Shown here piece after piece: positions 17,933-38,258 of a DNA stretch of 38,502 nt (positions are counted from its first letter, which is position 1; every line of letters begins with the position of its first letter). Under the pieces are notes generated by a model. The model was not told where the DNA came from, searched no databases, and worked only from the letters and a program-made list of their open reading frames with translations. Made by a program: the position numbers and the translations under genes. Location: IMG/VR virus record IMGVR_UViG_3300031951_000491, positions 1 to 38,502 of that record; one strand, 5' to 3'. The DNA is from a virus.

Positions 17933-18436
17933 ATGTTGTCACTGATCTCGACCCTTGGCGGTCTGCTGATCTCGGGCCTGCCCAAGTTGATGGAGTATTT
18001 CCAGAACAAGGCAGATCAAGCCCATGAACTGCGTCTGGCCCAGATTCAGACTGAGCGCGAACTCCAGTTGGCAGCGGCAGGATTTGCCGCCCAAGCCCGG
18101 ATGGAAGAGATTCGCACCGAGCAGGTGGCCATGGAGACCGACGCCCGGATGACCGAGGCTGCGTTGGACCACGACAAGAAGGTGCTGGAGAAGGCATCTC
18201 GCTGGGTTGCCAACTACGTCGGCACGGTGCGCCCCACGGTCACCTACCTGTTCGTGCTTGAGTTGATTGCGCTCAACGCTTTCATGGCGTGGTACCTGTG
18301 GAACCACCCGGAACTGATCCGCAGCGTGGAAGATGTGATCCGCTATTCCGACCTGATCTTCTCCAGTGACGAGATGGCCATGCTCGGCGGCATCATTGGC
18401 TTTTGGTTTGGTTCTCGCCAGTGGAATAAGAAGTGA
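17933..18436 (+). CDS. Holin, GTA-type three-transmembrane family-like (167 aa)
   Basis: Hydrophobic segments lie at about residues 1-15 (MLSLISTLGGLLISG), 102-124 (TVTYLFVLELIALNAFMAWY) and 146-160 (EMAMLGGIIGFWFGSRQW). The middle is a long charged helix. The block RWVANYVGTVRPTVTYLFV and the ending GFWFGSR match what I remember of the holin family described from gene transfer agent release (3TM). It should form the membrane lesion that lets the endolysin reach the cell wall. Its stop overlaps the endolysin start (GTGA), so the two are co-translated. Confidence 0.8.
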   Translation: MLSLISTLGGLLISGLPKLMEYFQNKADQAHELRLAQIQTERELQLAAAGFAAQARMEEIRTEQVAMETDARMTEAALDHDKKVLEKASRWVANYVGTVRPTVTYLFVLELIALNAFMAWYLWNHPELIRSVEDVIRYSDLIFSSDEMAMLGGIIGFWFGSRQWNKK

Positions 18437-18936
18437 AACTGAGCAAGGTAGGCGAAGCCCTCATGCACAAGTATGAAGGGTTTAGGAGTAAACCCTACCT
18501 TTGCCCTGCCCACATCTGGACCATTGGCTACGGCCACGTCCTGTACCAAGAGCAGATTCGCTTGCCTGTGATCCGCAAGGAAGGCTACACCGGGGCAATC
18601 AGGAAGGAATACCCGCTGCGAGGAGAAGATCATCGTGTTTGGACCAAGACAGAGATCGATGAACTATTCCATCTGGACGTCCAGACTTTTGAACGTGGTG
18701 TTCTTCGACTTGTTCCCGGCGTACTTGGCCGTCAAGGCGGCTTTGACGCTTTGGTCAGTTTTTCCTTTAATGCAGGGCTAGGCAATCTTCAGCGCAGCCA
18801 GATCAGGATGCGGGCCAACCGAGGCGACTGGGATGGTGCAGCCAATGCGTTCCGGCAGTGGACCATGGGTGGAGGCAAAGTCCTGCCCGGACTGGTCAAA
18901 CGCCGCGAGGCCGAGATTGCCCTTTTCTTGTCTTGA
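18433..18936 (+). CDS. Endolysin, GH24 phage lysozyme (167 aa)
   Basis: The start is GTG at 18433 within GTGA, overlapping the holin stop. The catalytic region has the GH24 E-x8-D/C-x5-T layout: E15 (HKYEGFRSKPYLCP), C24 and T30 (HIWTIGYGH). Cysteine in place of the usual aspartate occurs in many phage lysozymes. A charged insert lies at residues about 40-70, followed by FDALVSFSFNAGLGNL and the basic end LVKRREAEIALF. The enzyme hydrolyses the peptidoglycan glycan chain. No signal peptide or signal-anchor segment is present, so export depends on the holin. Confidence 0.88.
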   Translation: MKLSKVGEALMHKYEGFRSKPYLCPAHIWTIGYGHVLYQEQIRLPVIRKEGYTGAIRKEYPLRGEDHRVWTKTEIDELFHLDVQTFERGVLRLVPGVLGRQGGFDALVSFSFNAGLGNLQRSQIRMRANRGDWDGAANAFRQWTMGGGKVLPGLVKRREAEIALFLS

Positions 18937-21077: not shown

Positions 21078-22460
21078 GTGGCCACCCAGATTGTTACCAC
21101 GGAGTTTTCGCTTGATCGACCGGCTGCACCCAACCTGCCATTGGCCCCTCCTCAATATGACTCACGCTATCACGAGGCCCTCAATAACGTCCTGCGGTTG
21201 TATTTCAACCGCCTAGACACTTTCTTGGCGAAACTTATGGCCGACACATCCACACTTCCAGTCTCTATCGGCGGCACCAACGTAGACGCCTTTGGACGGT
21301 TGCGTGTTAGCCAACCCTACACACTCTTCGACAGCCAGAACCGCTACGCTGCTGATAATCAGTTCGACGTAGCCACGACTGGCACGGGCACGACGACATT
21401 CTTGTCCAACGAAGCGGCAGTGAAGATGGAGGTCACTGGGGCGGGGGTTGGCTCTGTAACCCGTCAATCCTATCGCTCGTTCCCGTATCAGCCGGGTAAA
21501 GGTTTGTTAGTGCTTGCTACCTTTGTGATGGACAGCAGCATGAGCCTGAACCTCACGCAGCGGGTGGGGTACTACAACGACAGTAACGGGGTGTTCTTCC
21601 AACGCATCGACGGGACTTACTCGTTTGTGCTGCGCTCCTCAACGTCTGGCTCACCCAGCGATGCCCGGACGGTCAATCAAGATGACTGGAACGGTGACAA
21701 GTTGGACGGCACCGGAGCTTCCGGGTATACCCTAGACCCGTCCAAAGCTCAGATTCTGTGGATGGACTTTGAGTGGCTAGGCGTCGGTTCCGTTCGGTGC
21801 GGTTTCATCATCAACGGTGAATACATCGTCTGCCACACATTCAACAACGCCAACGAGATTACTGGCGTCTACATGACCACAGCCATCCTGCCAGTGCGGT
21901 ACGAGATTAAGACCGTGACCTCTGCGGTGGCTGCATCCATGAAATCAATCTGCTGCTCGGTCATCTCTGAGGGCGGGTTTGAGCAGACCTCCATCGACCA
22001 TGTGGCGCGACGCACCACAATCTTGGGCACCATCGGCACGACCTTTTTGCCGCTTGTCTCCATCCGACTTGCCTCTGGACGCACAGGTGCGGTGGTGTTG
22101 CCCAACCGGGTTCAAGTCTTACCCACGACCAGTCAGAACTATGAGGTGGCGCTCATCAAGAACCCCACCCTGACGGGCGCTACTTGGGCGGCTACTGTAC
22201 CTTCAGACTCGAATGTCGAGTTTGATGTGGCTGCTACGGCGACCACGGGCGGCACTATTGTGCAGACAGACTATGTAACTTCTTCTGGCTCAGGCGGAGT
22301 GCAGAACACCAGTCTGCCAAACGATTACAACTTTGACCTCCAACTGGGCGCATCCATCGCCGGGGTCAGTGACATCTACACCGTTGCCATCAGAACTGTG
22401 TCTGGGGCAACCACGGGCGACGCGGTTGGGTCACTTTCCTTCTACGACCTAACACAATAA
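21078..22460 (+). CDS. Tail protein, lectin-like beta-rich (460 aa)
   Basis: The start is GTG at 21078; GGAGA at 21067-21071 lies upstream. After an N-terminal helical segment (YHEALNNVLRLYFNRLDTFL) comes the block DAFGRLRVSQPYTLFDSQNR, a motif I remember from many environmental phages. The rest is beta-strand rich with QRVGYYNDSNGVFFQRIDGT, and WMDFEWLGVGSVRCGFIING, resembling a concanavalin-type jelly roll. A C-terminal domain (SFYDLTQ) follows. It may be a tail or spike component. The function is inferred from context. Confidence 0.7.
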   Translation: MATQIVTTEFSLDRPAAPNLPLAPPQYDSRYHEALNNVLRLYFNRLDTFLAKLMADTSTLPVSIGGTNVDAFGRLRVSQPYTLFDSQNRYAADNQFDVATTGTGTTTFLSNEAAVKMEVTGAGVGSVTRQSYRSFPYQPGKGLLVLATFVMDSSMSLNLTQRVGYYNDSNGVFFQRIDGTYSFVLRSSTSGSPSDARTVNQDDWNGDKLDGTGASGYTLDPSKAQILWMDFEWLGVGSVRCGFIINGEYIVCHTFNNANEITGVYMTTAILPVRYEIKTVTSAVAASMKSICCSVISEGGFEQTSIDHVARRTTILGTIGTTFLPLVSIRLASGRTGAVVLPNRVQVLPTTSQNYEVALIKNPTLTGATWAATVPSDSNVEFDVAATATTGGTIVQTDYVTSSGSGGVQNTSLPNDYNFDLQLGASIAGVSDIYTVAIRTVSGATTGDAVGSLSFYDLTQ

Positions 22461-29189: not shown

Positions 29190-32100
29190 ATGCCGATCTA
29201 CCGCGTTCAAGCCCCCAACGGGAAGATTTATAAGGTAGAGGGGCCGGAGAACGCGGACCCCAATACTCTTTTTGGATTCGTCCAACAGCAGGTCGAGGCG
29301 GAGGACGTTCGTCGCCTGCAAAAAGAGTACGGTCCTGGCATCCTGCAAACCTTTGGGCGTGCCACCAAGCGTGGCTTCCAAGAACTAGGGTCACTCGGCA
29401 CCGACATCATCCCCGCTATGGCGGGGTCTGCACTTGGATTTGATGAGTACGCCAAAGAGCAGATGGCTGAGGCCGCTGCCAAACGTGCAGCACGTGAGGC
29501 CGAAGCGCCCACGGTGTTCCGCTCATATAAAGAAGTCGAGGGGCTGGGCGATGTGCCCAAGTTCGTGGCCGAAACGATTGGTGAGCAGGTTGCCAACATC
29601 GGCACCGCGCTCGTCCCCGGTCTTGGGCTTGGCGCACTTGCTACGCGCGGTGCTACTCAAGCCGCCGTCAAATCTCTAGCCGCTGAGGCCGCTGAGCGTG
29701 GTCTTGTTGGTACGGCTGCGGAGCAGTTTGTTGCGCAGGGCCTCAAGGCTGCGGCACCTCAGATCGCTGCACGCACCGCTACTGGCCAGAACGCCGGTAT
29801 CTTCTTGGGCTCGTACGCGCAGAACGCTCCAGAAGTTTTCCAGAACATCTACGAGAACACAGGTGAACTGGCTCCCGGCGCAGGTGCGTTGTTTGGTATC
29901 GCATCGGCTGCGCTTGACTCGGTGCTCCCGGCTGCACTAGCCAAGAACCTGACCGGTCCGGTCAAGGCGGGTATCGTCGAAAAAGTTCTTGAGAAGTCCG
30001 GCATGGACAAAGGGCTCCTGCGTTCTGTAACCGCAGGAACTATCACAGGTATCCCCGCAGAAGGTCTGACCGAAGGCGCTCAGGAAGCCATCAGCATCTT
30101 TGCCGAGAAGTTCGTAGCGGACAACCCGCAGGTCTTTGAGAGCAAGGAGTGGGACCGCATCATGGAAGCCGCCGTTAAGGGCGCGGTGGCCGGTGGTGCG
30201 TTTGGTGGTTTGGGTGGTGCAGCAGAACGTGCGAAAGCCGCATCCGAACGCCGTCAAGCCTACGCCGATGCGTTGGAGCGTCGGGGTCAACGGCAGCAAG
30301 CCGCCGAAGTGCGTCGGCAGGATGCCGAGATCATGGCCATGCAGGATCAAGAAGCGCAGATGGCGCTGCCCGGTATGGAGATGGGTCCGGCCACTGGGCT
30401 GTACCGCGCTAAAGAGGTTGCACCTGAAGTCGAGCCCAAGGAACTCAAGGGCAAGCAGGCTGAGTTGTTCACTCCCGAGGGCGAACTGACCCCTGCGGTG
30501 GAGAAAGCCGCAACCCGCGACGAGAAGATCGAGGCCAACAAGCAGCGACTGGCTGCGCAGCGTGATGCTGCCGAAGTCAAGGAGGCTCAGGCCAAGCTCA
30601 AGAAGTTCCTGTCGTCCAAGCAGGCCACTTTGCCGGGATTCGATGCCGAGTCTCTCGATGCGCTTGAGTCGCAGGTTGCTGATCAACGCAAGGCACAGGC
30701 AGAACAGCTTCAGGCCGCTGAAGCCATGGGGCAAAGCGATCTATTTGCACCGCCTGTCACTCAGACGACCAGTGTATCCGCACCACTTGAGGCACAACCT
30801 ACAACAACTCCTACGGTTACTCCGCAGGTACAACCTGCGCCCTCCCTTGAGACGATGCCAACTGCGATTGGCAAAGACTCGTCCGGCCTAAAAACATTCG
30901 GCAAGATGTTTGGTATCGGTCCGACCGCCCGGATTCTTCGGGAAGATGGGCCGTTGGCTGGCAAAGACATCTCCAACCCCGAGGACGCCGCCGAGGTCAA
31001 ACGGGTGCTGGAGACGTACGCTTCGGGTAAACCCGCAACTGGTGCAGCGGAGAAGATCGACACATATCTCAAGCGCCCCGAATTCCAAGGAGTCACAGAT
31101 GTCACTGCACAACCTGTCGAACAACCAAGTGGAGCAGGCGCTGGCGTGGTTGGCGAACCCGTCGCCGGAGCCGCCCCCGGAGTCGCTACAGGAGTTGAAC
31201 CAAGCGGAGTGGTACCTGCTCCAGAAGATGTTGGACAGCCTGCTGTCGGAGAAGGAGCAGTCGCCGCTCCAGTAGAGGCTGCGCCTGAAGTTACCGCCGA
31301 GGCCCCTGCCCCTGCACCCACACCGACCGAGGTAGTTGAAGCCGCCCCTGCCGAACCCGGCAAGAAGGCCAAGACTGATCTGGCCAAGGCGGAGCGTGGC
31401 CGTGAGGAGTCCGCCCAACAACAGGCCAACTTCCTAAATGAAGTTGACGAGAATGCCAACTCGCTACTTGTTTCACGGCTGCGTGAGTTGGGTCGGGATG
31501 CTGGCCTCAAGGACGTAGACCTGCCTGCTGAGAACTACCGGGGCACCGAAGCGCACAACATCCTGCGCCTGCCCTACCTGTTTGCCCAACACAACGACTC
31601 GATGGAAATGCTCCGTGAGTCCATGGGCACGCCGCAGGAGCAGAAGAACCGCGACCAGATTCAACAGATCGAGGAAGCCATCGCCCGGTCTGGGCCTGAA
31701 GCTGTCCAAGTGTTTCAGCAGTTGCAGGGCATGTCGCCCAAGCAGCAGACTGCTTACATCTCCGAGATTAACCGCGTCGGTCGGCAGATGTTCGACGAGT
31801 ACGCACAGAACTTCGTCTCCAAGACCAAGGCCGAACAGACCGAAAAGCCCGAGGCCAAGCTCAAGAAGGCAGAACCGACCGAGGCCGAGTTGGACGCCAT
31901 GGTCGAGGACTTCAATAAGAAGTTTTTTGAGAAAACTGGTCGAAAGCTGTTCTCACCGAGCTACCAAGGCCCCGCCTTCGATGCAGATCAGCAGCGTCTG
32001 GCTCAAGCCGGTGACGTCAATGGGCTGCTGCGCAACCTGATCGACAAGACTTCCAACCCGGTCATCAAGCAGATTCTGCGGCGCATCCGGTCGTTGAACC

Positions 32101-35100
32101 TCAACACCCGCGTGGTAATTGCCCCCGTCGAAGGGGGTCAGGCCGGTTCCTACGACCCTGCTACCAACACGATCACGCTTGACCCGACCAACGGGCTGAA
32201 CGCACACACGTTCATCCACGAGGTTGTGCACGCCGCGATCTCCAACGTACTGGCCAACCCCAGCCATCCGCTGACCAAGGCGTTCCAGCAGTTCTTCATC
32301 CAAATACAGGATCGGCTCGGCGCTGCCTACGGCGCACAGGACTTGCAGGAGTTTGCTGCCGAGTTGGTCGGCAACCCCGAGTTCCAAGCCATCCTGCGTT
32401 CCATCAAGGCCCCGCGCAGCGAAAGTCTGTTTCGGCGCATCATGGAGACGATTGCCGAGTTCTTCGGGTTCAAGGGCAAGAGCGCGTTCGACCAAGGCGT
32501 GAACTTCATCAACGACGCGATAAACATCTCAGGAGATGTGGAGCCAGTCGCGTCTCAAAAGATGTTCTTGGGCACGGGCGCATTCCCTGCGGTTGGTCGT
32601 ATTGGCCAGTCGATGCCCAGCCTGACTGGTGCCGCTGTTGATCGCACCAAGAACTTCTTCTCCAACATCAAGGATGTGGGTGCCTTGCAGGCTGGCCTCG
32701 GCATGCTGCGCTTGGACAACCTCAACACGATCTACGGCAAAGAACTGCCGAGCCTGCAAAAGCTCATCGACGCACTTGAGAAGCGCAACGGCACACAAGA
32801 GCAGCGGATCAAGACGGTCAACGAGAACTACAAGCGGTTCACGGACGTCCAAAAGAAGTTCCCGCAGGCGATGGAGCGCATGGGTGACATGGCAATCGAC
32901 GCCCGTCTGGCTGAGGTTGACCTGCTGAACCCCAACTTCCAGCCCACGAACGCCAATCTGGCGGAGTACAACCGGTTGCAGCAAATCTACCGCTCGCTGC
33001 CCAAAGAAGTGCAGGACGTTTACCGCACGATGCGCAAGGACTACGACCGCTCCTTGGGTGAGTACCGCAACATCTTGCTGCAAACCGTTTCACCGTCGCT
33101 GGCTCAGAGGCTGTCGATGGAGTTCCAGAACCTCAAGGGTGTGACAGGCTACGTGCCGTTCCTGCGGCATGGTGACTTCTGGGTGGAGTACGCCGACCCG
33201 CAGACCGGTGAGCGTGCAGCTTCTGCCTTTGAGTCAACTCGTGAGCGCCAGCAGTTCATCGACACCGTGCTCACCCCGCAGCGCATTCAGCATCGGGCCT
33301 ACCAGAATCTGCAAAGCATCTCCTACGATGCACAGGGCATCCCGCCCACCTCGTTCATTGGTCGCGTGATGTCTGACTTGCAGAAGCAGGGCGCAGATCA
33401 GTCGCAACTTGATAGCGTATATCAGGCATACCTGACGCTGTTCCCCGGCGAGTCCATCCTCAAGCAGTTCATGAAGGCCAAGAACGTGCGGGGTATGGAG
33501 CGTGACATGGTGCGCAACTACGGCGACATCATGGTGCGGTGGTCCCGCAAGCTGGCTAACTCCGAGTACATGCCCCAGATCAACAAGGCGCTCGGTGAGA
33601 TCGCCGTGCAGGGTGAACAGTCAGGTAGCTTGCAGGTTGAAGAAGCGGCCAAGGGTGTGCTGCGTCAGGGTGACTTCTTCCGCAACCCGACCTACGGCTC
33701 GATGGTCAACGCGGCTGTTCAGTTCAGCTACTTTGAGTACATCGCAGGCAACATCTCCTCGGCGCTGATCAACGTCACGTCGCTGCCCATGCTGGTGTGG
33801 CCACTGCTCAGTGGCAAGTTTGGCTTCGGTGAGACGTCTTCGGCCATGATGGCTGCAAGCCGCACCATCATCAACGGGTTGGACAAGAACCCCCGGTACA
33901 AGAACCTGTACCAGACGCTGATGGACCACGGCCAGCTTGAGCACACGATCTCTCGTGAAGTGCTTGAGGGTCGCCGCCAGACTACGGGTCAGTACTTCAG
34001 CCTGTACGGCAAGATGATGGACGCGCTGTCTATCCCCTTCTCGGCAACTGAACGGTACAACCGTGGCGTGACGGCTGTTGCTGCCTACGACTTGGCCAAG
34101 GGTCGCGGCATGAGCGAAGAAAAAGCCATTCGCTACGCGCTCGATACGGTCAAGGACATTCACACCTCCGGCATGGCGGCAACTGCTCCGCGCTGGATGC
34201 AGCACCCGGTTGGCCGTGTGTTCTTCACGTTCAAGTCCTTCGTGTGGAACAGCGCCTTCGTGGTGGCCCGTGCCTTCTACAACGCCTACAAGGGGGAGAC
34301 ACCGGAAGTGCGTCGCGCCGCCCAGCGACAACTTATTGGCATGTACGGCATGACCATGGCGTTTGCAGGTATGAAGGGCATGCCGTTCTACGGAGCCGCT
34401 TCCACACTGGCCACGATGCTCAACGCGATGTTCGGTGATGACGAGCCGTTTGACTTCGACGAGGAGATGCGGCGGTTCTTTGGAGAACTTTTCTACAAGG
34501 GGTTCTTCAACTACATCACCAACATCGAACTGGCCAACCGTGCTGGTATCGCAACCGACCTGATCTACCGCGACGATCCGCGTGGTGTGGCCGAGCACGG
34601 CTACGTGCTGTCCGCCATGCAGCAAGCCTTCGGCCCCTTGGGCTCCTACCTAGTCAACGCCGAGCGTGGTATCAACGCCATGGCTGATGGGCAGGTCATG
34701 CGTGGGGTGGAGTCGCTGCTGCCAAGCTGGCTGCGTAACGGCCTGAAGGGTGCCCGGTACATGACCGAAGGCGCTACGACACTCAAGGGTGACCCGGTTG
34801 TCGAGGATGTAAGTGCTTACAACTCACTGATGCAGGTGATCGGTTTCGCCCCGGCGAACTTGTCCACGACCTACGAGAAGCTGTCCGCAGCCAAAGCCTA
34901 CGAGCGTGAGATCAACTCCAAACGCGCCAAGCTCTTGGACCGCTACAACATGGCCAACGAGGCCGGTGACTTTGACATGCGGGAAGAAACGAAGGTGATG
35001 ATCCGTGAGTTCAACGAGGTGTTCCCCGCCAAAAAGATCACGCAAGAGACGCTGGCCAAGTCAATCGCCGGACGCAAGGCTGCTGAGAAGCAGATGATCA

Positions 35101-35174
35101 ACGGCGTGCGCTTTGACAAGAGCCTGATGCCTGAAATCCAAGAGAAGTTCTTCTCAGACGAGGAAGAGGAATAA
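29190..35174 (+). CDS. Virion megaprotein with HEXXH metallopeptidase-like domain (1994 aa), gp16-type
   Basis: The start has TAAGGA upstream. Residues 1-50 form a small N-terminal domain (YRVQAPNGKIYKVEGPENAD). An Ala/Gly-rich region from about 130-340 (GLGLGALATRGATQAAVKSL) includes GIPAEGLTEGAQEAISIF. A Lys/Glu/Gln-rich part and an Ala/Pro/Gly linker (about 620-730) follow. Near 1000-1060 is a zincin-type domain: HEVVH at 1010-1014 and EFAAE at 1054-1058, a candidate third ligand. The C-terminal third is helical, with NISSALINVTSLPMLVWPLL near 1520 and FTFKSFVWNSAFVVARAFY near 1680. It is probably the largest ejection protein, comparable in role to T7 gp16. It ends FFSDEEEE, then the terminator. 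Confidence 0.78.
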   Translation: MPIYRVQAPNGKIYKVEGPENADPNTLFGFVQQQVEAEDVRRLQKEYGPGILQTFGRATKRGFQELGSLGTDIIPAMAGSALGFDEYAKEQMAEAAAKRAAREAEAPTVFRSYKEVEGLGDVPKFVAETIGEQVANIGTALVPGLGLGALATRGATQAAVKSLAAEAAERGLVGTAAEQFVAQGLKAAAPQIAARTATGQNAGIFLGSYAQNAPEVFQNIYENTGELAPGAGALFGIASAALDSVLPAALAKNLTGPVKAGIVEKVLEKSGMDKGLLRSVTAGTITGIPAEGLTEGAQEAISIFAEKFVADNPQVFESKEWDRIMEAAVKGAVAGGAFGGLGGAAERAKAASERRQAYADALERRGQRQQAAEVRRQDAEIMAMQDQEAQMALPGMEMGPATGLYRAKEVAPEVEPKELKGKQAELFTPEGELTPAVEKAATRDEKIEANKQRLAAQRDAAEVKEAQAKLKKFLSSKQATLPGFDAESLDALESQVADQRKAQAEQLQAAEAMGQSDLFAPPVTQTTSVSAPLEAQPTTTPTVTPQVQPAPSLETMPTAIGKDSSGLKTFGKMFGIGPTARILREDGPLAGKDISNPEDAAEVKRVLETYASGKPATGAAEKIDTYLKRPEFQGVTDVTAQPVEQPSGAGAGVVGEPVAGAAPGVATGVEPSGVVPAPEDVGQPAVGEGAVAAPVEAAPEVTAEAPAPAPTPTEVVEAAPAEPGKKAKTDLAKAERGREESAQQQANFLNEVDENANSLLVSRLRELGRDAGLKDVDLPAENYRGTEAHNILRLPYLFAQHNDSMEMLRESMGTPQEQKNRDQIQQIEEAIARSGPEAVQVFQQLQGMSPKQQTAYISEINRVGRQMFDEYAQNFVSKTKAEQTEKPEAKLKKAEPTEAELDAMVEDFNKKFFEKTGRKLFSPSYQGPAFDADQQRLAQAGDVNGLLRNLIDKTSNPVIKQILRRIRSLNLNTRVVIAPVEGGQAGSYDPATNTITLDPTNGLNAHTFIHEVVHAAISNVLANPSHPLTKAFQQFFIQIQDRLGAAYGAQDLQEFAAELVGNPEFQAILRSIKAPRSESLFRRIMETIAEFFGFKGKSAFDQGVNFINDAINISGDVEPVASQKMFLGTGAFPAVGRIGQSMPSLTGAAVDRTKNFFSNIKDVGALQAGLGMLRLDNLNTIYGKELPSLQKLIDALEKRNGTQEQRIKTVNENYKRFTDVQKKFPQAMERMGDMAIDARLAEVDLLNPNFQPTNANLAEYNRLQQIYRSLPKEVQDVYRTMRKDYDRSLGEYRNILLQTVSPSLAQRLSMEFQNLKGVTGYVPFLRHGDFWVEYADPQTGERAASAFESTRERQQFIDTVLTPQRIQHRAYQNLQSISYDAQGIPPTSFIGRVMSDLQKQGADQSQLDSVYQAYLTLFPGESILKQFMKAKNVRGMERDMVRNYGDIMVRWSRKLANSEYMPQINKALGEIAVQGEQSGSLQVEEAAKGVLRQGDFFRNPTYGSMVNAAVQFSYFEYIAGNISSALINVTSLPMLVWPLLSGKFGFGETSSAMMAASRTIINGLDKNPRYKNLYQTLMDHGQLEHTISREVLEGRRQTTGQYFSLYGKMMDALSIPFSATERYNRGVTAVAAYDLAKGRGMSEEKAIRYALDTVKDIHTSGMAATAPRWMQHPVGRVFFTFKSFVWNSAFVVARAFYNAYKGETPEVRRAAQRQLIGMYGMTMAFAGMKGMPFYGAASTLATMLNAMFGDDEPFDFDEEMRRFFGELFYKGFFNYITNIELANRAGIATDLIYRDDPRGVAEHGYVLSAMQQAFGPLGSYLVNAERGINAMADGQVMRGVESLLPSWLRNGLKGARYMTEGATTLKGDPVVEDVSAYNSLMQVIGFAPANLSTTYEKLSAAKAYEREINSKRAKLLDRYNMANEAGDFDMREETKVMIREFNEVFPAKKITQETLAKSIAGRKAAEKQMINGVRFDKSLMPEIQEKFFSDEEEE
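31087..31092 (+). promoter_or_regulatory. Shine-Dalgarno (AAGGAG) of a nested gene
   Basis: AAGGAG lies six bases before an ATG at 31099, in the +1 frame relative to the surrounding megaprotein gene. Strength and spacing match the best ribosome binding sites in the window. Confidence 0.75.
31099..31275 (+). CDS. Nested 58-residue gene inside the megaprotein gene (+1 frame)
   Basis: The 58-codon frame has AAGGAG at 31087-31092 and ends TAG at 31273-31275. It encodes MSLHNLSNNQVEQALAWLAN, then Pro/Glu-rich SPEPPPESLQELN and QAEWYLLQKMLDSLLSEKEQ, ending SPLQ. The pattern helix, PP linker and amphipathic helix with a Trp resembles short free-standing phage proteins ending LxxLLxEKxxSPLQ that I recall from other phages. 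In the megaprotein frame the same bases encode only Ala/Pro/Gly/Val/Glu (residues 637-696), with eight GGA and four CCA codons, while the nested frame shows the GC-rich third positions typical of this phage. I therefore think it is real; its function is unknown. Confidence 0.68.
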   Translation: MSLHNLSNNQVEQALAWLANPSPEPPPESLQELNQAEWYLLQKMLDSLLSEKEQSPLQ

Positions 35175-35209: not shown

Positions 35210-35437
35210 TCAAGGAGAAGCAGAGTGCGGGGGCATTGTAGCGTCTACTCTCCATACACGCAAACCGTACACCCCGCGCTCCACAACCTGTTTACAGATC
35301 ACCTCGATCTTTAGCCGCGCTGCCTCCTCCCGTACGAACCGTTCGGTCAAGCGACGATCAACGCACGGGACGAAGAACGAGGTGCCCGGTTTGAATTTGT
35401 CCCACTCAATCAGTAGTGGGAGTCCCATTATCTTCAT
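35210..35437 (-). CDS. Small protein of unknown function after the primase-helicase (75 aa)
   Basis: The gene overlaps the primase-helicase end by 32 bases. Two starts are possible (35437, or the ATG at 35428 giving MGLPLLIEW); neither has a strong ribosome binding site, so coupled translation is likely. The sequence reads LPLLIEWDKFKPGTSFFVPC followed by VDRRLTERFVREEAARLKIE and VICKQVVERGVYGLRVWR. The pattern SFFVPC then a helical EAARL followed by KxVVExGxYGLRVWR suggests a small alpha/beta fold. I recall similar short proteins near phage replication genes. No enzyme motif is visible. Confidence 0.7.
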   Translation of the reverse strand: MKIMGLPLLIEWDKFKPGTSFFVPCVDRRLTERFVREEAARLKIEVICKQVVERGVYGLRVWRVDATMPPHSASP

Positions 35438-38258
35438 CGTTCAGCAGTATTGCGTCATTGAAGAACTCCAGTTTGGTGGTGTCAAAGCACAGGGCGTTGA
35501 CCGGAGCTTGGGTGTTGGCCACGGTGCCTGCCGTCATGCGCTTCTTCTTGATGTCCACTAGAGCCTTGGTCTTGCGGTAGGGGGCCAGCACCTCGTCGAA
35601 GTTCGCCATGACTTTGGCGCAGTCCTCACGGAAGGTGCGTACCACTACGTACAGCATCTTGGTGTCAGGCTCATACCGCGCAGTCAGCGCACCGCGTGGC
35701 TCCCGTATCGGGGCGTGGTCCAGCCCACTGCGTGCGTCCTTCTCGCCCTTGATAACAAGAATCTCGTGGAAGTGACGCTGTAGGAATCCTCCTAGGAATT
35801 CGTCGTTGTCAAACATGTACTCCCGTGCACGGGTACGTGTCTCAGTCAAAAGGTTGATCGCGTAGTTGAACACCGGCTTGATGGGGATGTCGTGCAGCCC
35901 GAGGTGCTTGGCGATGGACCCGCCTGCGATGCCCAGAGAGACCATGAGCGCCCAGTACCGTTCTGCGTTGCGCACCTGTGCAGCCTGATCGACCCGGCCC
36001 CGAATCTCTTCCAGCTTGGCCTTGACCATGGGCAACTGCGATACCAGCGCCTGCGAGTACGGCTCGATGGCATGCCCGTAGTTGTGCATCAGGCGGTCGA
36101 AGTGAGCCCGTGCCCATGTGGCGTCGTCGTTGGGATCAGGCTTGATGTTGATCTCCATGATCCGCTTGAGTTCGCCATCGGGGAAGCCCTTGATGGAGAG
36201 CAGCGCGTCAGTCACGTACCGGTTGGACGACGTGATGAGGCCGGTCTGCCACTTGGTGCTGTTGTGCCGCTCGGCGTTCTCGTGTTGCTTCAAGCGGTTC
36301 TTGCCCCGACCCGAAGTCACGTCGTAGATTTGTTGCGACATCTGATCAGGCGGCATGTTGGTGATCTCGTCCATGGTCACCGCGAAGTTCTGCATCACGC
36401 CCAGACGCTGCATCCGTGAGTTGTACGTGTCCTTCGGGGACAGCAGGAGTTCCTTGGGTCTGCCGTAGATGCTGTTGATCGCTTGCAGGATGGTGGTCTT
36501 ACCAGACCCGGACTCGCGGCTGACCAAGTTGAGCAGGAAACCATCAAGCGCCGTGAACTTCATGAGCATGGTGCCGAACCCCATGAACAGGGCAAACGCC
36601 CGGTGCTCCATGCCCTCACGCCCGTAGACGTTGACGACATCCTTCCAGACATGGAAGTCGCCCTTGCACTGGAACAAAGGTACGTGGGGGAGCGTTGGCG
36701 CGGAGGGTGGGCTGTAGGCGATCTCGGTTGCTCTGATCTCGCGGTCGCCCACGATGATGGCGGACTCGTCCTCCAGCCAGCCAAATTGTTTCTGGGCCTT
36801 TTCGGCTTGTGCGTTCATCTGAAGTTCTTCTACCCACTTGGCGACGTATTGCATCAATGTGTCCTGTTTCTTGCCAAGCGCCGTGATGCCGTACGACGCC
36901 ACGGTGCTGACGAATTTTTCTTTGGACAGCACGTTGGCCAGAGGCATGATGAAGTCCCTGACACCATCTTTAGGCAAGTGCAGTCTGAGCAGCAGAGTCT
37001 CGCCATGGTCAGGGTCCTGCATCCGCTTAACGACATAGAAGTCGTACGGATACACGATGTCATCAATATCGTTGCCGTCTCTGTCTTTGGTGTGGACGAA
37101 CACGCCACCACTCTTGCCCCGGAAGAACGGGAAGGGGAACTTGGGGATGACGTACGTCTTGGCTTCTTTGGTCTCCGGCTCAAAGTCGGTGACGGTGTTA
37201 TCTTCTTCAGTGGCTTCAACGATCTCCCGACCCAACTGGATCGGTGATGTGATCTTCAGCGTGCAGTTCTCGCAGCCTGCCGGGTTGAGTTTCTTGAATG
37301 TCTCGCAGGTGTACGGGCCTTTGGTCTCAGCGGCCTTGCGCTCGGTCTCGGCGGCGTTGTATCCCGAGTACTTGCTAGACAGTACATGGATGCCCTTGGC
37401 CCCATCAGCGCAGTGCTGCGCAATCGACAGCCCTGCTCTCCACAGCGGCTCCTCAATAGTCTCTTGGTTGTCGTAGATGTGGGCGATCTGGTTGCAGCCA
37501 GTGCCTTCGACGGACTTGATGAGGATGGTCTTGAAGTTTGATTGACTCGCGCCAATCAGCGCCATCGTCACCGGGTCCATGCCGCGCTTGAACTCGGCGC
37601 GGTCCAACACGGCCAAGATGTTTTCCGTTGGCTCCAGACACGCGTCAACCTGCGCCTTCGTCATTGGTGTTGCGACGTGCAGCACCTCCACCGGGGTCGG
37701 GTTGGTCGGGTCCTTCAGGTGCAGTGTTTCAGGGATGCGCAACACACGTGCGGCTTCTCCCGTCACTGCCGGATCAACATCAAACTTGTGTGTGACGCAC
37801 AACTCCTTGAGGCGTTCTGCGTATGGCTTCCACTCCTTGCGTGGCAGCGGTTGCTCCAGCACCCAGTACACATGCGCACCGACCCCGGACTTGACGATGG
37901 TCGGGCGAGGCAGACCAGTTGCCTTGCAAAAATTTTTCAGTGCTACAAGACCTTCACCCAGATCAGCGAAAGGCTTGCCGGGGCCGCAATCAAGATCAAT
38001 GTAAAACGATTTGAGAGCTACTGCGTTGTTGGCTGTACGTCCTTCTTTGGGATCGCCGTACTTGGCGACTGCGAAAAATGCGTTGAAGTTCTCGCCTACC
38101 AAGGCATCTGCAACTGCACTCAACCCCTCGATGTCGTCTACAAACCGCTGCCGTACTACATCTTCCTCGTTTACCTTCTTGATTCCGACCGCGCAATACT
38201 TCTCGCCTGCATCCAGAGATGGGAGCACCAGCGAGAGAAACTCGGTCCTCGAAATCAT
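35406..38258 (-). CDS. Primase-helicase: AEP primase, zinc motif and DUF927-type ATPase (950 aa)
   Basis: The start at 38258 has TAAGGA six bases upstream on the minus strand. Residues about 60-180 carry an archaeo-eukaryotic-type primase core: D88-x-D90 in SFYIDLDCG, SGVGAHVYW near 124-132 (H129) and RVLRIPETLHLKDP near 171. A Cys/His region follows (C255, then C318, C329 and C332 in YTCET...GCENC). Residues about 530-720 are an ATPase: Walker A near 580-589 (SRESGSGKTT) and Walker B VTMDE (D630/E631), as in DUF927 helicases. The fusion could synthesise primers and unwind DNA at the phage origin. No DNA polymerase gene lies in this window. Confidence 0.85.
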   Translation of the reverse strand: MISRTEFLSLVLPSLDAGEKYCAVGIKKVNEEDVVRQRFVDDIEGLSAVADALVGENFNAFFAVAKYGDPKEGRTANNAVALKSFYIDLDCGPGKPFADLGEGLVALKNFCKATGLPRPTIVKSGVGAHVYWVLEQPLPRKEWKPYAERLKELCVTHKFDVDPAVTGEAARVLRIPETLHLKDPTNPTPVEVLHVATPMTKAQVDACLEPTENILAVLDRAEFKRGMDPVTMALIGASQSNFKTILIKSVEGTGCNQIAHIYDNQETIEEPLWRAGLSIAQHCADGAKGIHVLSSKYSGYNAAETERKAAETKGPYTCETFKKLNPAGCENCTLKITSPIQLGREIVEATEEDNTVTDFEPETKEAKTYVIPKFPFPFFRGKSGGVFVHTKDRDGNDIDDIVYPYDFYVVKRMQDPDHGETLLLRLHLPKDGVRDFIMPLANVLSKEKFVSTVASYGITALGKKQDTLMQYVAKWVEELQMNAQAEKAQKQFGWLEDESAIIVGDREIRATEIAYSPPSAPTLPHVPLFQCKGDFHVWKDVVNVYGREGMEHRAFALFMGFGTMLMKFTALDGFLLNLVSRESGSGKTTILQAINSIYGRPKELLLSPKDTYNSRMQRLGVMQNFAVTMDEITNMPPDQMSQQIYDVTSGRGKNRLKQHENAERHNSTKWQTGLITSSNRYVTDALLSIKGFPDGELKRIMEINIKPDPNDDATWARAHFDRLMHNYGHAIEPYSQALVSQLPMVKAKLEEIRGRVDQAAQVRNAERYWALMVSLGIAGGSIAKHLGLHDIPIKPVFNYAINLLTETRTRAREYMFDNDEFLGGFLQRHFHEILVIKGEKDARSGLDHAPIREPRGALTARYEPDTKMLYVVVRTFREDCAKVMANFDEVLAPYRKTKALVDIKKKRMTAGTVANTQAPVNALCFDTTKLEFFNDAILLNDEDNGTPTTD

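Follow-up and report, generated by a model that had tools for sequence, protein, structure and literature searches.

A putative small gene nested out of frame inside the giant polyvalent-type protein gene of uncultivated phages

Does a reading frame of 58 codons, lying in the +1 frame of a gene for a giant phage protein, encode a second protein, and if so, how is it made, how did it come to lie there and what does it do? The locus is found in IMG/VR virus record IMGVR_UViG_3300031951_000491, positions 1 to 38,502 of which were analysed and are referred to here as the window (38,502 nucleotides). An earlier note on this DNA had described an AAGGAG followed after six bases by an ATG and a 58-codon +1 frame within a gene of 1994 residues, and all of these coordinates were confirmed in the sequence. 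The features of the locus are as follows.

29190–35174, plus strand: host gene for a giant polyvalent-type protein of 1994 amino acids, continuous through the nested gene (PHROG, DarB-like; Pfam, LPD39).
31087–31092, plus strand: AAGGAG, a Shine-Dalgarno-like sequence of the nested gene, six bases from the start codon (from the sequence).
31098–31277, plus strand: host residues 637–696, a low-complexity A/P/G/V/E linker (composition, codons, dN/dS of 2–5, lowest synonymous rate).
31099–31275, plus strand: nested gene of 58 amino acids plus TAG, with ATG at 31099 and the stop codon TAG at 31273–31275 (relatives, dN/dS, AlphaFold2).
32217–32231, plus strand: HEVVH zincin-type metallopeptidase motif, host residues 1010–1014 (host alignment).
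32691–33101, plus strand: LPD39 (large polyvalent protein associated domain 39), host residues 1168–1304 (Pfam PF18858, E 3.8e-12).
33144–35144, plus strand: DarB-like C-terminal region, host residues 1319–1985 (phrog_10089, E 2.7e-69).

The host protein meets the criterion for a polyvalent protein, namely a giant multidomain protein with zincin or associated domains. Its LPD39 match scored 46.7 bits (cut-off 27), and homologues of the giant protein contain a conserved LHExxHA followed by a downstream E-F motif. The giant gene follows virion structural genes; from this late-gene neighbourhood and the polyvalent-protein domains we infer that the giant protein is present in the virion. It shares the zincin motif, LPD39, the DarB-like C-terminus and the late-gene location with the polyvalent proteins of Iyer et al. 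2017 (PMC5512222), but that paper does not contain the word 'overlap', and a second gene inside a polyvalent protein gene is not described there. The closest named record to one of the virion structural genes of the window (21078–22460) is the metagenome-assembled Phage DSL-LC04, with 70% identity, followed by Puniceispirillum phage HMO-2011 (44%). A primase/helicase-like gene of 950 amino acids on the minus strand (35406–38258) converges on the giant gene, and among isolates the closest match to it comes from Pseudomonas phage Rollin (28.5%).

The nested ORF (58 codons in the +1 frame of the 1994-residue gene; translation MSLHNLSNNQVEQALAWLANPSPEPPPESLQELNQAEWYLLQKMLDSLLSEKEQSPLQ) encodes an acidic product of 6.6 kDa with a pI of 4.2. 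The stop-free +1 run that holds it spans 127 codons, compared with 173 codons for the longest such run in the giant gene, and the length and openness of the ORF are by themselves within chance. Since finding the +1 frame open over such a length is unremarkable in the giant gene, the case for a nested gene rests on comparison. Chance does not account for the codon pattern or the start signal, and least of all for the conservation.

Searching the 58-residue product against phage proteins, which the earlier note had suggested as a check, revealed nested relatives in uncultivated phage contigs and none in the isolates searched. Among the IMG/VR contigs, 24 loci were found, in each of which the small ORF lies, always in the same phase, within an ORF of approximately 1850–2540 residues. 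Wider scans, with alignments of the nested family and of the host protein as queries, enlarged the family to 159 sequences that are distinct at the nucleotide level and code for 146 distinct proteins, from uncultivated phage contigs; a single scan counted 291 relatives, 80 of which were kept. All 159 distinct relatives lie in the same +1 phase inside a giant ORF. The nested product is 57–58 amino acids long in most relatives, the start codon is ATG or GTG in all of them, stop codons of all three kinds occur, and the family consensus is MLxxLSxxQVExALxWLxSPxxxPPPxELxxLNQxEWFLLxRMLxxLLxEKxxSPLQ. In loci L034, L042, L073–L075 and L079 the nested ORF is present and the C-terminal region is far from the FFPLVRRG-type of other giant proteins; as this region is very different, the giant C-terminus has been replaced or has strongly diverged there.

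The presence of the nested ORF was also tested without selecting for it, in two scans that used the C-terminal part of the giant protein as the query and yielded 103 loci. Each of the 76 loci with a complete 5' part has it within the giant ORF, and it is also present in 11 further, cut loci. With L299, a 77th positive in which the nested ORF is intact and still nested and the giant gene is frameshifted far downstream, 77 of the 77 host-selected genes with enough 5' sequence contain it. The remaining 15 of the 103 loci lack it, and all of these end upstream of it at the contig end. The proposal of a nested gene would have been refuted by relatives that keep the host frame and lose the nested one, and no such case occurred among the 77. 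We rejected L299 as a split gene, because the host frameshift lies well downstream of the nested ORF. This frameshift (L299:3100-3300) splits the giant gene into pieces of 1097 and 1057 amino acids and is either a sequencing error or a real break; L299 also carries a 950-amino-acid ORF in the same convergent arrangement as in the window.

Exactly one copy of the nested family was found in each of the 20 large phage records examined (60–74 kb), and none of these 20 records has a copy outside the giant gene. Free-standing homologues of the nested product were detected neither in the isolate phages searched nor in bacterial or archaeal genomes. Ten named records in which a giant protein or other genes are related to those of the locus or its phages all lack the family (Skulduggery, douglas 12A4, Mwe-JY07, 1F273_PE002, ZX1, Y7, Itty13, Rollin, DSL-LC04 and HMO-2011); a weak match of 10 bits in Rollin reads as unrelated. 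The possibility of similar small proteins in marine T7-like cyanophages and pelagiphages was tested on P-SSP7, Syn5, HTVC010P and HTVC019P and was not supported.

Selection on the two frames was compared by pooled Nei-Gojobori dN/dS for 42 distinct gap-free overlap sequences. Within the overlap, dN/dS was 0.10–0.30 in the nested frame, approximately 2–5 in the host frame and 0.7–1.0 in the third frame. The same pairs gave a host-frame pS of 0.03–0.18 within the overlap, compared with a pS of 0.33–0.73 and a dN/dS of 0.14–0.50 in the rest of the host gene, and in a clade scan of 130 windows the four with the lowest pS all fell on the overlap. Frame-specific synonymous rates had been named in the earlier note as a check, and they came out in its favour, with a low nested dN/dS and host synonymous change that is lowest in the gene at the overlap. 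Because the sequence pairs are not independent, the pooled ratios are only descriptive, and it is the size and agreement of the signals that carry weight. Differences were most frequent at the third nested codon position (0.44), followed by the first (0.34) and the second (0.19), and the host third codon position was the most conserved in the overlap. T occupies the nested third position in 3.5% of codons, compared with 27% elsewhere. When nested codons were resampled synonymously, the host frame was open in 5.7% of trials, and when host codons were reshuffled synonymously, the +1 frame was open in 19%; both frames are open in 159 of the 159 relatives. The residues LIFMWYC make up 3.7% of the host linker, compared with 14.9% expected. 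As far as can be judged from sequence comparison, these computations show purifying selection on the nested frame, as well as selection that keeps the host frame within the overlap open and low in hydrophobic residues.

Because the nested dN/dS is low and the host frame is selected to remain open, both frames are evidently coding. The earlier note had accepted that it would be wrong if free-standing homologues were lacking and the nested frame evolved freely; the first of these holds for the collections searched, but the second does not. A chance ORF is rejected on the basis of the selection, the presence in host-selected loci, the start signal and the low host-frame pS, and an RNA element is rejected because an Rfam search gave no match and the substitutions follow nested synonymy. 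The idea that there is no second protein, and that a conserved DNA or RNA element or a low-complexity linker has left the +1 frame open as a compositional by-product, can practically be discarded: the host linker is indeed of low complexity and the +1 frame of a GC-rich gene is often open, but the changes concentrate at the nested third codon position at a dN/dS of 0.10–0.30, a nucleic-acid element would not track nested-frame synonymy, and the +1 frame is open in all 159 real sequences and in only 19% of the host-synonymous reshuffles. The criteria for an embedded gene are met, i.e. a whole ORF inside a same-strand ORF of another frame, its own start and ribosome-binding site, and coding selection in both frames. 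Dual coding, as claimed in the earlier note, is supported by the conservation, the start signal, dN/dS and the host frame that is kept open, and we conclude that the locus is very probably a true same-strand dual-coding region, with an internally initiated small protein within a giant gene.

How the nested frame is reached can be judged from its start. GGAG occurs within −16 to −4 of the nested start in 138 of 159 distinct relatives, compared with 450 of 16,814 (2.7%) other ATG/GTG codons in the +1 frame of the same host genes. The information upstream of the nested start peaks at −10 to −7, and amino-acid conservation in the nested frame begins at the start codon. An in-frame stop lies at most 20 codons upstream of the nested start in 84 of 158 relatives, and at most 5 codons upstream in 17. 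A promoter scan of 30600–31600 revealed no sigma-70-like site. Three features speak for internal initiation and against frameshifting: the fixed start signal, the conservation from the start codon onwards and the in-frame stops upstream of it. A +1 ribosomal frameshift, which would attach a 58-residue tail to an N-terminal fragment of the megaprotein, is compatible with the invariant +1 phase that such a product requires, but seems very unlikely, since the conserved upstream element is a Shine-Dalgarno sequence plus ATG/GTG at fixed spacing, since conservation starts only at the start codon, and since in-frame stops lie shortly upstream in about half of the relatives. With internal initiation, the late mRNA that encodes the giant protein would be read in two ways: some ribosomes would make the 1994-residue polypeptide, and others would begin in the +1 frame, at AAGGAG-ATG (31087/31099), and produce a separate acidic helix-loop-helix protein of 58 residues. 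That the nested ORF is actually translated is inferred, without expression data, and we regard it as almost certain.

The host protein across the overlap (residues 637–696, DVTAQPVEQPSGAGAGVVGEPVAGAAPGVATGVEPSGVVPAPEDVGQPAVGEGAVAAPVE) consists for 85% of A, P, G, V and E, compared with 40% in the whole host protein. GGA accounts for 8 of 11 Gly codons in the linker and for 9 of 153 elsewhere in the giant gene, and CCA for 4 of 9 Pro codons compared with 6 of 94 elsewhere, which bears out the linker composition and the otherwise rarer GGA and CCA codons described before. GC3 is 0.93 in the nested frame; in the host frame it is 0.33 in the overlap and 0.72 elsewhere in the gene, and it is lower in the overlap than in the rest of the gene in 159 of the 159 relatives. 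The earlier suggestion that the linker is a by-product of overprinting passed each test that could be run, and the comparisons support such a putative origin for the A/P/G/V/T linker of the giant protein. Selection would act mainly on the small protein, and the giant protein would need only an open, soluble and flexible hinge. This hinge would join the N-terminal helical region to the variable, metallopeptidase and DarB-like regions, with the overlapping bases supplying its sequence.

The median pairwise identity of the nested product is 61%, compared with 15–25% for regions of the giant protein in the same pairs, and nested identity exceeds that of each host region in 97–99% of pairs. Given this higher identity, none of the other regions of the locus that were compared is as conserved as the nested gene. 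Nested and host distances are correlated (Mantel r 0.52–0.72). Of the 312 pairs in which the nested products are at least 85% identical, 119 have a conserved upstream flank and an unrelated downstream flank, and 4 show the reverse; judged from these alignments, the nested stop marks a putative domain-swap border of the giant protein. Downstream replacement between close relatives right after the equivalent of the stop at 31275 was observed, for example, in L016/L018, L098/L117 and L132/L135. Pfam gave no match for the tested swapped segments after the nested ORF.

Whether this arrangement arose by fusion or by de novo birth is a question of history, and a fusion is compatible with dual coding. 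Two genes may have been joined by reading through a small gene between them, the linker being de novo sequence; alternatively, the small gene may have been born de novo inside an existing linker. A fusion is quite conceivable, if somewhat short of probable. The host-frame stretch is of low complexity, with atypical codons and almost no hydrophobic residues, as a novel frame would show; codon-usage and disorder criteria for recognising such a frame have been reviewed (PMC8227390). However, strong selection on the nested frame alone gives the same codon skew, an unfused or free-standing form was not found in any searched collection, and in most internal overlaps the +1 frame is reported to be the de novo one (PMC8227390). 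We offer only tentatively the wider reading that an essential small late gene was locked inside a giant gene by fusion of the flanking genes, that the small gene remained the conserved core and the linker is new, that the nested stop forms the left border of a downstream domain-swap site, and that across a broad phage lineage it is the hidden gene, and not the annotated one, that is conserved.

AlphaFold2 models of the nested product contain a helix at residues 8–19, a proline-rich loop and a helix at residues 35–54 (pLDDT 83–85), and the product is thus predicted to be an acidic helix-loop-helix protein. Two AlphaFold2 models, used as queries in structure searches, found nothing at E ≤ 0.001, and no convincing relative was found in Pfam, PHROG, NCBIfam or the PDB. 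The family phrog_5825 (208 positions, unknown function) was matched weakly by 18 of 92 family members, with a best E of 0.0016 in one of the 92, and the window product itself had no match to it. On inspection, the matches were partial (positions ~144–179) and covered only the first ~30 residues of the nested product. Homology to phrog_5825 was rejected, because the matches are partial and too weak, and a significant full-length match is lacking.

Our best guess, inferred and rather doubtful, is that the small product acts in assembly or packaging, as a partner of the giant protein or of the injection complex of that protein, and is produced in cis from the mRNA that also encodes the giant protein. 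It is based only on location, co-inheritance and general character. The small protein may instead be real but functionally unlinked to the giant protein, e.g. a late host-directed or lysis-timing factor that is nested only for reasons of history and expression level, and to this we give nearly an even chance. The surrounding giant protein has been replaced or is unalignable while the nested product stays conserved, and no domain indicates an assembly role. The constant occurrence of the nested ORF with the giant gene and never elsewhere in the genome, as well as the nested distances that track those of the host protein, speak against an unlinked function, but co-inheritance alone could account for both observations.

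Out-of-frame nested phage genes are already known, and what is new here is this family inside a giant gene. In phiX174, a compact ssDNA phage, gene B lies in A and gene E in D, out of frame and with internal initiation. In contrast, the present family is found in dsDNA phages of 60–74 kb, and it is the nested gene, not the long one, that encodes the conserved protein. The embedded two-component spanin genes Rz/Rz1 of phage lambda (PMC6139136) are also comparable. Like the nested gene, Rz1 is small, is entirely contained in a longer gene of the same strand, is read in the +1 frame from its own start and is often missed by gene callers. However, Rz1 is an outer-membrane lipoprotein that is encoded in a small lysis gene and binds the product of that gene (PMC6139136), whereas the nested gene sits in the middle of the gene for a late protein of ~2000 residues. 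The nested product of the window contains no lipobox, Cys, or hydrophobic or membrane segment. A spanin context is also absent, as the host is a giant LPD39/DarB-like protein and the endolysin gene (18433–18936) is ~12 kb away. An Rz1-like spanin o-subunit was rejected on these grounds, i.e. no Cys, no membrane segment and no lysis-cassette context.

Standard annotation, and gene callers that reject nested ORFs, would miss one of the two proteins of this locus. All members of a large group of uncultivated phages that could be checked have retained the family, yet it is unmatched in the family libraries used. As a natural example of dual coding the locus is unusually clear, and it occurs in a dsDNA phage with a large genome, where genome compression is not an obvious reason. 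It may serve as a benchmark for overprinting, with one frame under strong purifying selection, the other forced into a low-complexity hinge, and many distinct sequences to compare. It also suggests that further conserved genes should be sought within the linkers of giant phage proteins.
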